Both the position numbers and the translations under genes were made by a program. This document shows, in pieces, positions 3,905-15,947 of a stretch of DNA of 64,000 nt; the stretch's first letter is position 1; each line of letters opens with the position of its first letter. The DNA is taken from the NCBI GenBank assembly GCA_033875315.1, contig JANRJG010000038.1:62001-126000 (forward strand). The letters are read 5' to 3'. The notes beneath the pieces were generated by a model. It saw only the letters and a program-made list of their open reading frames with translations. It had not been told where the DNA came from and made no database searches. This DNA comes from Candidatus Methylacidiphilales bacterium (GTDB lineage Bacteria; Verrucomicrobiota; Verrucomicrobiia; Methylacidiphilales; CAZTYG01).

Positions 3905-4376
3905 AGGCCGGGGCTGAGGGCGGTGAACCTAAGGCCTGCTATGGCATCCATACCTGAATGTTAGCGGGCCTCACATGGAACGGGCAAGGGATGATCTTGC
4001 CATCCACCTACTTCACCCAGCGGATTCCCCGTCTTCGTCCAGACAAGACGGCGCGGCCTTCGCTTCGGGGGGGAACGGGGAAAGGAGGGATGGTTATTTG
4101 TGCTTCTTACTTCCCGTTCATTCTCCCGGCGGGGGCATCGGCTGCGTCCGCACAGGGGTGTCCCCGGCATATCCGCCCGTCGGCCGGGCCCGGGCCATTT
4201 ATGCTTGCCCGCATACGGGAAGCGTCTGTAATATCCTCCGCTCCATTCGTTCCGTAACAGGAGCTGGGTGGGCGTGATTTTCGGGGTAAAATTCTGGCTC
4301 TTGTGTTCTTTGGTGTGGCATGACATCGCAGAATACATCCTCAACCAGTTATCAAGTCCTTGATAATCAAGAGTTT
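3905..4376. other. gene-free stretch upstream of tRNA-Met
   Basis: No believable coding region is seen. It holds the shortened third repeat copy (4021-4080) and, near 4351-4364, a small palindrome ATCAAGTCCTTGAT about 12 bases before the tRNA. The tRNA promoter must lie in the right-hand part but no confident -35/-10 pair stands out. Confidence 0.45.
4021..4080. repeat. interspersed repeat, copy 3 (short)
   Basis: About 60 bases matching the right-hand half of the copies at 2450 and 3161: GTCTTCGTCCAGACAAGACG, then GCGCGGCCTTCGCTTCGGGG and GGAACGGGG. It lies upstream of the frameshifted gene at 3564-3874, so each of the three toxin-antitoxin-like modules has one copy on its 5' side. Confidence 0.6.
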
Positions 4377-4450
4377 GGCAGCGTAGCTCAGTGGTAGAGC
4401 AGGGGACTCATAAGCCCTTGGTCACAGGTTCAAATCCTGTCGCTGCTACC
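4377..4450 (+). tRNA. tRNA-Met (CAT anticodon)
   Basis: A full cloverleaf is visible: acceptor GGCAGCG (4377-4383) with CGCTGCT (4441-4447), D-arm GCTC/GAGC, anticodon loop CTCATAA (4407-4413) with CAT at 4409-4411, and T-arm ACAGG-TTCAAAT-CCTGT. CCA is not encoded; the sequence continues CCCCCC. The anticodon stem has one A-G mismatch next to the loop. CAT could be elongator Met or the Ile tRNA whose C34 is modified to lysidine; the acceptor and stem fit Met better, but this is not certain. The gene is directly followed by a GIY-YIG nuclease gene and by a copy of its own 3' part. Confidence 0.9.
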
Positions 4451-4460
4451 CCCCTTGGTT

Positions 4461-4706
4461 ATGGCTTGGGTTTACATCCTCAAAGGCAACAACGGCCGCC
4501 ATTACATCGGATCGACGGTCGATCTGGAGGCGCGGCTGGAACAACACCTCCGCGGCCATACCCACACCACAAAGCGATTGGGCCCGGAGTTGCAGATCCT
4601 GGCCTCGCGCGAATTTCCCACTTTGCCAGAAGCGCGAAGTTTTGAGCGATTTCTCAAAGCCAAGAAAAATCCCAGGCTAGCGCTACATCACCTGCAAAAC
4701 GGCTAG
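4461..4706 (+). CDS. small GIY-YIG nuclease, tRNA-Met-associated
   Basis: The 81-residue product is a stand-alone GIY-YIG domain: WVYILKGNNGRHYIGSTVDL at the N-terminus holds the paired Y-x-L and Y-I-G strands, followed by the helix arginine region RLEQHL and a C-terminal basic tail (RFLKAKKNPR). GIY-YIG domains cut DNA with one metal ion and occur in homing endonucleases, UvrC and the UPF0213/SLX1-like group. No DNA-binding accessory domain is present. The ATG at 4461 follows the tRNA 3' end by 10 bases, so the gene is probably read from the tRNA promoter. The TAG stop (4704-4706) lies within a copy of the tRNA D-arm. Confidence 0.85.
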   Translation: MAWVYILKGNNGRHYIGSTVDLEARLEQHLRGHTHTTKRLGPELQILASREFPTLPEARSFERFLKAKKNPRLALHHLQNG

Positions 4707-4762
4707 AGCAGCCCCGAAAGCTTTCGGGGTTGGTCACAGGTTCAAATCCTGTCGCTGCTACC
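4701..4762 (+). repeat. partial tRNA-Met copy with a hairpin replacing the anticodon arm
   Basis: The segment starts with a D-arm-like GGCTAGAGCAG, then a perfect hairpin CCCCGAAAG/CTTTCGGGG (4712-4729), then TTGGTCACAGG, the complete T-arm and the 3' acceptor strand identical to tRNA-Met (4419-4450). The anticodon stem-loop of the true tRNA is missing and there is no 5' acceptor strand, so it cannot be a functional tRNA. It ends the first GIY-YIG unit; sequence after it resumes like the sequence after the real tRNA. Confidence 0.85.
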
Positions 4763-4773
4763 CCCCCTTGGTT

Positions 4774-5111
4774 ATGGCTTATACCAAATTGAATTGAGTG
4801 GGCGTAAAAGTGCCTTACGGGAGGGCGAAGCTCCTGGCTCCCCCGTAAGCCTTCGGGGCTGAGCCGCCCTTGGAATAGAGACATCAAACCGGCTCGGCAG
4901 GAGCCTCGCCCTCCCGTTTATTCTGTCGTTCAGTCATTTTAACTTGGTATTAGGTTTACATACTCAAAGGCAGGAACGGCCGCCATTACATTGGCTCAAC
5001 GGTTGATATGAAGGCATGGCTGGAACAACACCTCCGCGGCCATACCCACACCACAAAGCGATTGGGCCCGGAGTTGCAGATCCTGGCCTCGCGCGAATTT
5101 CCCACTTTGCC
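4774..5111 (+). pseudogene. second, truncated GIY-YIG copy split by a MITE
   Basis: Bases 4774-4781 and 4953-5111 repeat 4461-4627, the first two thirds of the upstream GIY-YIG gene, at an offset of 313 bases, with ~90% identity by eye. The copy is split after eight bases by the 168-bp element at 4782-4949, and it breaks off at CCCACTTTGCC, short of the C-terminus. It is the remnant of a tandem second unit next to the leuB end. Confidence 0.85.
4782..4949. mobile_element. MITE-like element, copy 1 (168 bp)
   Basis: The ends are TACCAAATT and AACTTGGTA, with imperfect inverted similarity over ~27 bases. They are flanked by a direct TTA on both sides (4779-4781 and 4950-4952). The interior folds into a long palindrome, GGGAGGGCGAAGCTCCTG near 4819 against GGCAGGAGCCTCGCCCTCCC near 4915. 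There is no coding capacity. A 167-bp copy lies at 58148-58314 and shorter relatives at 15634-15779 and 9285-9399. The 3-bp T-N-A target duplication is known from the IS1031 group of the IS5 family, so that group is a candidate source of the transposase. Confidence 0.85.
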
Positions 5112-14705: not shown

Positions 14706-14782
14706 CGCGGGGTGGAGCAGCCAGGTAGCTCGTCAGGCTCATAACCTGAAGGCCGTAGGTTCAAATCCTACCCCCGCAACCA
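14706..14782 (+). tRNA. initiator tRNA-fMet (CAT)
   Basis: 77 bases with acceptor CGCGGGG pairing to CCCCGC and an unpaired first base (C1 opposite A72), the hallmark of bacterial initiator tRNA. The anticodon stem ends in the G-C pairs typical of initiators, the loop is CTCATAA with CAT, the T-arm is GTAGG-TTCAAAT-CCTAC, and CCA is encoded at 14780-14782. It is followed by a terminator and a GIY-YIG array carrying pieces of its own 3' part. Confidence 0.96.
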
Positions 14783-14787
14783 ATTTC

Positions 14788-14821
14788 AAAACCTTGGAGT
14801 TTATCCCTCCAAGGTTTTTTT
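14788..14821 (+). terminator. rho-independent terminator after tRNA-fMet
   Basis: AAACCTTGGAG pairs with CTCCAAGGTTT across a short loop, followed by a run of T (14815-14821). It begins 6 bases after the tRNA CCA end and would end the tRNA transcript, with read-through into the GIY-YIG gene at 14828. Confidence 0.9.
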
Positions 14822-14827
14822 GTGGGT

Positions 14828-15088
14828 ATGTCATATCGCGTTTATGTCATCCAAAATGCCCAAGGTAAGTTCTACATTGGCTTATCCGACGATGTGCCAC
14901 GCCGCCTGAATGACCACAACACGGGTGTTTCCAAATGGACCAGGGGCAAAGGTCCATGGATTTTAATGTGGACCAGCCAAGCGATGTCCCTCTCGGAAGC
15001 CCGTAAACTTGAAAACCGTCTAAAACGCATGAAGGGCGGCGACGGCTTCTATCAATTCACAGGCTTAAAACGCTCGTCAGGCTCATAA
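14828..15088 (+). CDS. small GIY-YIG nuclease, tRNA-fMet-associated (first)
   Basis: The 86-residue stand-alone GIY-YIG protein shows YRVYVIQNAQGKFYIGLSDD with the paired V-Y-V/Y-I-G strands, RRLNDHNTG as the helix region, and ARKLENRLKRMKGG near the C-terminus. It would be a small single-metal DNA endonuclease without an extra DNA-binding domain. The ATG at 14828 is preferred over an upstream GTG. Its last codons and TAA stop (15074-15088: R-S-S-G-S-stop) are made of a copy of the tRNA-fMet D/anticodon region, CTCGTCAGGCTCATAA. It lies directly after the tRNA terminator. Confidence 0.85.
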   Translation: MSYRVYVIQNAQGKFYIGLSDDVPRRLNDHNTGVSKWTRGKGPWILMWTSQAMSLSEARKLENRLKRMKGGDGFYQFTGLKRSSGS

Positions 15089-15132
15089 TCCCGCCGTTGG
15101 CGGGACCGTAGGTTCAAATCCTACCCCCGCAA
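15072..15132 (+). repeat. partial tRNA-fMet copy with hairpin insert
   Basis: The segment copies CTCGTCAGGCTCATAA of tRNA-fMet, then has a perfect hairpin TCCCGCC-GTT-GGCGGGA (15089-15105) in place of the 3' side of the anticodon arm, then CCGTAGG, the T-arm and the 3' acceptor strand CCCCCGCAA. No 5' acceptor half is present. A second, decayed copy of the same unit is at 15619-15826, split by a MITE-like element. Confidence 0.85.
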
Positions 15133-15274: not shown

Positions 15275-15514
15275 ATGGACTACGTCTATCTCCTTCAAAG
15301 TGAGACTTTTCCCGAAAGATACTACTGCGGACTTACTGGAGACTTGAAAGCCCGCCTGAAGCTTCACAACGCAGGTCAATCGATCCATACCGCAAAGTTC
15401 CGTCCTTGGAAGATTTCAAGCTATTTTGCATTTTCTGATCGAAAGAAGGCCGTTGCTTTTGAGTTATACCTTAAAACGGCCTCCGGTCGTGCCTTTGCCA
15501 AAAAACGCCTTTGA
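15275..15514 (+). CDS. small GIY-YIG nuclease, tRNA-fMet-associated (second)
   Basis: The 79-residue product MDYVYLLQSETFPERYYCGLTGDLKARLKLHN has the GIY-YIG strands with Y-C-G in place of Y-I-G, the helix arginine, and FRPWKISSYFAFSDRKKAVAFELYLKTASGRAFAKKRL at the C-terminus, typical of the UPF0213/YhbQ-like subgroup. It is clearly different from the first GIY-YIG protein of this array, so it is a separate arrival rather than a duplicate. It begins ~140 bases after the partial tRNA copy. Immediately after its stop a partial second copy of the first nuclease unit starts. Confidence 0.85.
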   Translation: MDYVYLLQSETFPERYYCGLTGDLKARLKLHNAGQSIHTAKFRPWKISSYFAFSDRKKAVAFELYLKTASGRAFAKKRL

Positions 15515-15516
15515 AC

Positions 15517-15947
15517 ACCAGCCAAGCGATATCCCTCTCGGAAGGCCGTAAACTTGAAAACCGTCTAAAACGCATGAAGGGCGGCGACGGCTTCTATCAA
15601 TTCACAGGCTTAAAACACTCGTCAGGCTTTTAATACCCAATCACATGGACTGAGCGACAGCTTCTTCGGGAGGGCGAGGCTCCCGCCGAGCCGGATTAAG
15701 GTCAGCACGCCAAACACGGCTCAGCAGGAGCTTCGCCCTCCCAAAAGGCCTTTTGTCGCCTACTTCACCTGATTGGGTATAATCCCGCCGTTGTCGGGAC
15801 CGTAGTTTCAAATCCTACCCCCGCAATTAACCTTCGCCTTTCAGGCTACGGCGTAACTGCCTGCGCAGCCAGCCAGCTCCGTCCACGCGTTTGGGGCTTG
15901 TTCACACAGTGAGAAGGCGATCACGCCGAAGCCTTGGCGTAGGCGGA
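15517..15947 (+). repeat. second copy of the GIY-YIG end / tRNA fragment / spacer unit, MITE-split
   Basis: Bases 15517-15633 repeat 14972-15088 (3' third of the first GIY-YIG gene plus tRNA start) at offset 545. Bases 15780-15947 repeat 15086-15253 (hairpin, T-arm, acceptor strand and a 120-base spacer) at offset 694. The difference of 149 equals the 146-bp element plus a 3-bp target duplication. The copy is non-coding and its T-arm has diverged. The unit boundary falls where the second nuclease gene begins in the first copy. Confidence 0.88.
15634..15779. mobile_element. MITE-like element, copy 2 (146 bp)
   Basis: Perfect 10-base inverted ends TACCCAATCA / TGATTGGGTA, with weaker similarity out to ~27 bases (both sides reach GCGACA). 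A direct TAA flanks both ends (15631-15633 and 15780-15782). The interior is the GGGAGGGCGAGGCTCCCGCC palindrome. The insertion site is exactly the TAA inside the copied tRNA anticodon loop. Confidence 0.88.

Follow-up and report, generated by a model that had tools for sequence, protein, structure and literature searches.

The window analyzed here, a stretch of 64,000 nucleotides from a Candidatus Methylacidiphilales bacterium, carries an intact tRNA-Met gene followed by a short unit (unit 1) and by a truncated second unit. The features of this Met locus are listed below.

4376..4451, + strand: intact tRNA-Met(CAT), host gene of unit 1 (ARAGORN; Rfam tRNA, 69.4 bits)
4461..4706, + strand: GIY-YIG nuclease gene of unit 1, encoding 81 aa (Pfam PF01541, E=2.4e-13)
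4704..4710, + strand: TAGAGCA, copy of the tRNA D-stem 3′ strand (sequence)
4711..4729, + strand: element hairpin GCCCCGAAAGCTTTCGGGG in place of the anticodon arm (inverted repeat, sequence)
4730..4766, + strand: right tRNA copy, beginning at tRNA position 43 and extending slightly beyond the 3′ end (same sequence as 4418-4454)
4762..4780, + strand: leader of the second, older unit, offset 313 (19-base leader repeat)
4783..4948, no strand assigned: MITE-like repeat inside the second unit (166 bp, 56 matches in the genome)
4950 to about 5113, + strand: truncated second GIY-YIG gene copy, offset 484 (repeat analysis)

The ATG of the unit 1 GIY-YIG gene lies 10 bases past the end of tRNA-Met, and its stop codon is the TAG of TAGAGCA, i.e., it is located inside the copied D-stem strand. 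In the partial tRNA-Met copy, the anticodon arm was exchanged for a foreign hairpin, CCCCGAAAGCTTTCGGGG; GCCCCGAAAGCTTTCGGGG, a strong hairpin, lies between TAGAGCA and tRNA position 43, at the place of the anticodon arm. The right copy constitutes a 37-base exact repeat (4418-4454 and 4730-4766) with an offset of 312. The second GIY-YIG gene copy was 93% identical to the first over 4950-5111, and its body was found at an offset of 484 because the 166-bp repeat sits at 4783-4948. This MITE-like repeat has ACCAA/TTGGT ends and GC-rich inner inverted repeats.

Alignment of the unit 1 GIY-YIG protein revealed conserved Tyr, Arg, His, and Glu residues, and a model predicted from the single sequence had a GIY-YIG-like topology (pLDDT 74.5). 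The protein scarcely exceeds the catalytic domain and has no separate DNA-binding domain. An earlier note, made from the sequence alone, had described an intact tRNA-Met with a GIY-YIG gene starting 10 bases further on, and this was confirmed by ARAGORN, Rfam, and Pfam. Its description of the downstream segment as a copy of the D-arm edge, T-arm, and 3′ acceptor strand held in part; the hairpin occupying the place of the anticodon arm had been missed. The claimed repetition of leader and gene at an offset of exactly 313 held for the leader only, the offsets being 312 for the tRNA copy and 484 for the gene body.

The same window contains a second, independent unit at the tRNA-fMet locus (14706-15132), followed by further related sequences, as listed below.

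14706..14782, + strand: intact tRNA-fMet(CAT), host gene of the second locus (ARAGORN; Rfam)
14828..15088, + strand: GIY-YIG nuclease gene, fMet type (Pfam)
15089..15105, + strand: element hairpin TCCCGCCGTTGGCGGGA (sequence)
15106..15132, + strand: right tRNA-fMet copy, covering positions 48-74 (same sequence as 14753-14779)
15275..15514, + strand: third GIY-YIG gene, related to the SGSG subfamily (Pfam, sequence)
15516..15826, + strand: remnant of an older fMet-type unit (3′ part of the gene, hairpin at 15783-15799, tRNA copy to 15826)

The last codons of the fMet-type gene, TCA-GGC-TCA-TAA, are formed by the copied anticodon region (15072-15088), and TCCCGCCGTTGGCGGGA stands in place of the 3′ side of the anticodon stem and the first part of the variable loop. 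The fMet-type and Met-locus GIY-YIG proteins were 28% identical. A weak Rfam match to mir-4891 on the minus strand (15653-15751; 35 bits against a gathering score of 100) was taken as spurious; it covers a palindromic repeat related to the MITE-like repeat.

The exchange of one tRNA arm for an unrelated hairpin, with the tRNA sequence resuming beyond it, characterized the pseudo-copies. The anticodon arm was swapped at tRNA-Met (L031), Arg (L046), Thr (L045), Pro (L052), and Ala (L087) loci and partly swapped at fMet (L030), Asn (L090), and Tyr (L120) loci; the T-loop was swapped at Cys (L108), Gly (L139), and Ser (L113) loci, and the D-loop at a second Pro locus (L118). The hairpin was always located at the break in the tRNA copy in the loci inspected. 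The fMet-type hairpin, TCC[C/G]GC-loop-GC[C/G]GGA, was nearly invariant across phyla, and 50 of the 52 distinct sequences formed 6 bp or more. The copied tRNA segment, on the other hand, was locus-specific: many different T-stems were found, and the left and right copies were identical in 33 of 54 units. Grouping the units by protein motif proved too coarse for comparison with the swapped arm, 50 of 88 units falling into the group "other", and the correspondence between subfamily and arm therefore rests on the reading of single loci. A role of the hairpin as a terminator or in mRNA stability was considered and is unlikely, because the hairpin is kept in non-coding units and is not trailed by a T run. 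Right copies at L033/L156, L195, L198, and L199 contain a second TCCCGC..GCGGGA hairpin in the T-loop, as if swapped twice. A GIY-YIG subfamily whose genes end in LKSGSG.AF (L003, L006, and L061) has long palindromic leaders that are repeated on both sides, and the tRNA copies of L006 and L061 begin in the T-loop.

In this genome, eight GIY-YIG matches were obtained at E<=1e-8, and all six loci found with the window protein had a tRNA (Met, Met, Gly, Ser, Met, and Ser). Among the 146 GIY-YIG matches in 118 loci sampled from the order and the phylum, 105 had a tRNA on the same strand within 900 bp upstream and 51 had one within 100 bp upstream, the crude background for the latter being 0.6%. 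A copy of the 3′ part of the upstream tRNA then followed in 58 of the 146, compared with 1 in shuffled controls, which excludes chance. Some of the 118 loci overlap, and the search profile was built from tRNA-adjacent members, so that the tRNA-linked fraction is biased upward. An internal control was provided by UPF0213-like genes from the same searches: 89 of 113 distinct GIY-YIG matches were near a tRNA versus 1 of 7 UPF0213-like genes. When named genomes were scanned with the fMet-type profile, 79 loci were obtained, mostly in Verrucomicrobiota, with others in Lentisphaerota, Planctomycetota, Armatimonadota (Zipacnadia), and Patescibacteria; the downstream tRNA copy was present in 56 of 97 matches (control, 0). 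After removal of duplicates from all samples, 96 distinct 3′-type copies remained, covering 11 tRNA isotypes, and the layout was present in about 100 analyzed loci of Verrucomicrobiota, Patescibacteria, Planctomycetota, Armatimonadota, and Lentisphaerota. When 62 genomes of the order were searched by exact matching for pairs of T-loop boxes with a spacing of about 280 bases, only five places in four genomes were returned, all of which fall in these units. The window protein had no match in the plasmid collection or the phage collection. Of 240 Patescibacteria genomes, 166 carried these GIY-YIG genes. Genomes no larger than about 1 Mb contained as many as 13, which is a considerable burden given their reduced size.

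A mirror layout, consisting of a tRNA 5′ part with one swapped arm, a GIY-YIG gene, and an intact tRNA, was usual in Patescibacteria and was also found in Verrucomicrobiota (L024, L085, L086, and L138). Among 19 genes with a tRNA start within 300 bp downstream, 11 were preceded by a 5′ copy, compared with 0 in the control; in one of these cases (L312), the apparent copy is an adjoining tRNA-Ile gene and not a swapped copy. Units with the same ends lacking the gene were also identified, namely two of 99 bp in L237 and five of 94 bp in L007. These non-coding units keep the hairpin, which therefore belongs to what spreads and not only to the mRNA. In L007, tandem units of about 94 bp on the reverse strand (893-1400) consist of a tRNA-Met 5′ half and a CCCCGAAAGCATTCGGGG hairpin without a nuclease gene, and they stand upstream of the intact tRNA. 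Tandem arrays of units were found in L010, L045, and L046. In L064 and L068, about 250-320 and 555-640 bases past the tRNA 3′ end, the element hairpin is fused to an inverted tRNA-fMet 5′ half, behind which lies a second fMet promoter region; this arrangement suggests that an inversion took place between two fMet loci by way of the units.

Orthologous fMet loci with and without the unit were found in one genus (g4): G057 is empty and G058 filled at one site, and G022 is empty and G034 filled at the other. The filled alleles contained a clean insertion of 302 bp, delimited by the tRNA 3′ end on one side and by the end of the copy on the other, with flanks 72-79% identical over 400 bp upstream and 81-82% identical over 630-700 bp downstream. 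The tRNA was identical in empty and filled alleles, and the pseudo-copy lacks one arm. Bases past the tRNA end were duplicated locally (CGATTTTT at site A and CGTTTTT at site B). The g4 nuclease had dN/dS values of 0.08-0.31, indicating purifying selection. A tree of 44 fMet-type GIY-YIG proteins had too few columns to prove horizontal transfer.

These results show that a unit of about 300 bp, comprising a GIY-YIG gene, an element hairpin, and a partial tRNA copy that represents one side of the gene, inserts at tRNA genes and that the tRNA stays intact. They also show that the units stack in tandem, that non-coding versions occur, and that the nuclease and the hairpin are conserved. The element is thus very likely a mobile, tRNA-targeting unit. 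The proposal of the earlier note that the unit keeps the tRNA whole is supported, because the layout is common in relatives (58 of 146 matches in the phylum sample and 56 of 97 in named genomes), the 302-bp unit is what distinguishes filled from empty orthologous loci, and the family is mostly near tRNAs; cutting by the nuclease is still an inference. The note had held that the proposal would be refuted if the GIY-YIG family lay mostly away from tRNAs, and the comparison with the UPF0213-like genes showed the opposite. The arm-swap hairpin, the mirror layout, the non-coding units, the taxonomic breadth, the fMet unit, and the host-matching tRNA 3′ parts were absent from that note.

In the mechanism that we propose, the nuclease would recognize and cut tRNA-gene DNA within a single arm (the anticodon, T, or D arm, according to the subfamily), and the cut arm would be the one swapped in the pseudo-copy. 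The break would be repaired against an occupied copy, the tRNA sequences flanking the arm providing the homology, and the unit would thereby be inserted with the tRNA kept whole. The hairpin-for-arm swap would leave the spare copy uncuttable, so that later events would strike the intact tRNA again and build arrays. The nuclease gene may be expressed from the tRNA promoter. We lean toward this mechanism as a whole (cutting, repair, and protection by the arm swap), with cutting being inferred. The balance is tipped modestly in its favor by the controls, the empty and filled loci, the arrays, the gene-less units, the catalytic residues, the dN/dS values, the hairpin, and the precedent of SegB. 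Several points stand against it. There are no cleavage data, and the protein is a nearly bare catalytic domain without a separate DNA-binding domain. If the tRNA alone is the target, a filled allele would still be cuttable, because its tRNA does not differ from that of an empty allele. The host-matching 3′ parts are not predicted by plain donor-templated homing after long-range transfer.

Because both tRNA 3′ parts are usually of the host type, the unit may duplicate its target and not import a replacement half. In the pairs L171/L151 and L157/L150, the genes are 77-81% identical and the T-stems differ, and the left and right copies are the same in each. Mismatches between the left and right copies, where present, are concentrated next to the hairpin (17 of 252 versus 21 of 720 sites; p=0.013, post hoc), possibly as if that part were element-borne. 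L147 and L201 each have two different, fully paired T-stems, the odd T-stem of L201 being borne by the far copy and being of either donor or former host origin, and the right copy of L187 may represent a foreign 5′ strand joined in the T-loop to a host 3′ strand. Target duplication, by offset nicks or repair synthesis, is one possible origin, favored by the mostly host-type copies and the locally duplicated bases; a donor-borne part with later conversion is another, favored by the hairpin-side differences, L187, L147, and L201.

The best-surviving rival explanation, which remains possible, is transposon-like insertion and not homing: two offset nicks made by the nuclease, at an arm and at the tRNA end, would be followed by insertion of the unit and by gap filling that duplicates 20-37 target bases, and the hairpin would be the end of the element, recognized by the nuclease. 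This is supported by the identity of left and right copies in 33 of 54 units with many different, locus-specific T-stems, by the two pairs of similar genes with different T-stems, by the local duplication past the tRNA end, and by the near-invariance of the hairpin. It is opposed by the clustering of copy differences beside the hairpin and by L147 and L201, and to our knowledge no GIY-YIG enzyme transposes DNA.

A system acting at the RNA level, in which the nuclease would cleave a tRNA arm and the arm-swapped copy would be a resistant decoy, as in a toxin-antitoxin pair, is very unlikely. The breaks do lie in tRNA arms and loops, where tRNA ribonucleases cut, and the swap would resist cleavage; however, the copy amounts to only half a tRNA, gene-less units occur, the sequence relatives are DNA nucleases (SLX1, I-TevI, and UvrC), and the empty alleles and tandem arrays indicate DNA mobility. 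We likewise give little credence to host-useful amplification, in which the nuclease would be retained for raising tRNA gene dosage like SegB in phage T6: this precedent and the tandem arrays favor it, but the arrays multiply arm-swapped half copies and contain a single intact tRNA each. Finally, a tRNA gene might simply have undergone local duplication and decay next to a nuclease gene that is there by chance, and segmental duplications are known at tRNA genes; this explanation is all but excluded by the repeated occurrence of the layout, including the hairpin at the break, in about 100 loci covering 11 isotypes and several phyla.

Among known systems, the closest experimental support comes from SegB, a free-standing GIY-YIG nuclease of T-even phages. 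It cleaves tRNA genes internally at RAWTSGAAC and promotes the amplification of tRNA-segB in tandem (PMC13096335); by our reading, this motif is the reverse complement of the T-loop box GTTCSAWTY. SegB resembles the present units in that the GIY-YIG gene adjoins tRNA genes of many isotypes and tandem tRNA-nuclease repeats are formed. SegB differs in being phage-borne; the window protein had no match in the phage collection, and the half-tRNA copy, arm-swapped hairpin, and gene-less units are unreported in the relevant sections of PMC13096335. Fungal mitochondrial mORFs bring a replacement gene end, as in Allomyces atp6 and Glomus atp6, atp9, cox2, and nad3; the nuclease gene, of the GIY-YIG type in atp9, is located behind a complete host gene, the native 3′ end having been pushed downstream as a non-functional copy (PMC3630166). 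The present units share the nuclease gene with a duplicated host-gene end and the downstream displacement of the native end. In contrast, mORFs are located at mitochondrial protein genes, the end that they insert is foreign in sequence, and neither an arm swap nor a hairpin is described; in the present units, the left and right copies mostly match the host and were identical in 33 of 54, whereas L147 and L201 are exceptions to this rule.

Integrative elements that target tRNAs, such as islands and prophages, likewise insert at tRNA genes, where a second copy of the tRNA end is left behind; they are large and integrase-driven, whereas these units are about 300 bp with a nuclease only. An integrase island was rejected on this ground, as the units contain the GIY-YIG gene alone and no integrase or recombinase. 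A group I intron was also rejected: the tRNA is uninterrupted, and Rfam gave two tRNAs and two matches far below the gathering scores. UPF0213 (YhbQ-like) proteins include the nearest solved structures by sequence (1zg2 and 1ywl); their genes differ in not being tRNA-associated in our sample. Traits of free-standing GIY-YIG homing endonucleases were met as regards the catalytic domain with conserved active-site residues and the empty and filled alleles at one locus; site-specific cleavage and biased inheritance, which are further traits of such genes, are at most inferred. The earlier note knew of no described element with this layout, and no description was found in the literature searched, a scope that excludes bioRxiv and most subscription journals.

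A bolder reading is that these units represent a distinct class of minimal, nuclease-driven mobile elements of bacteria in several phyla that insert at tRNA genes, duplicate one side of the tRNA, guard the spare copy by the arm-for-hairpin swap, and include nuclease-less derivatives moved in trans; taking all these clauses jointly, we regard it as falling slightly short of an even chance. tRNA genes are among the commonest landing sites of mobile DNA in bacteria, and the known users are large and integrase-bearing. If the reading is true, a unit of about 300 bp whose only protein is an 80-residue nuclease would rank with the smallest autonomous mobile elements, and it would show a selfish gene living at essential genes without breaking them. 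It would also account for many genes annotated as "GIY-YIG nuclease family" and for half-tRNA pseudogenes. The arm swap would offer a direct test of the DNA recognized by each nuclease, and the family may provide a set of small tRNA-specific nucleases.
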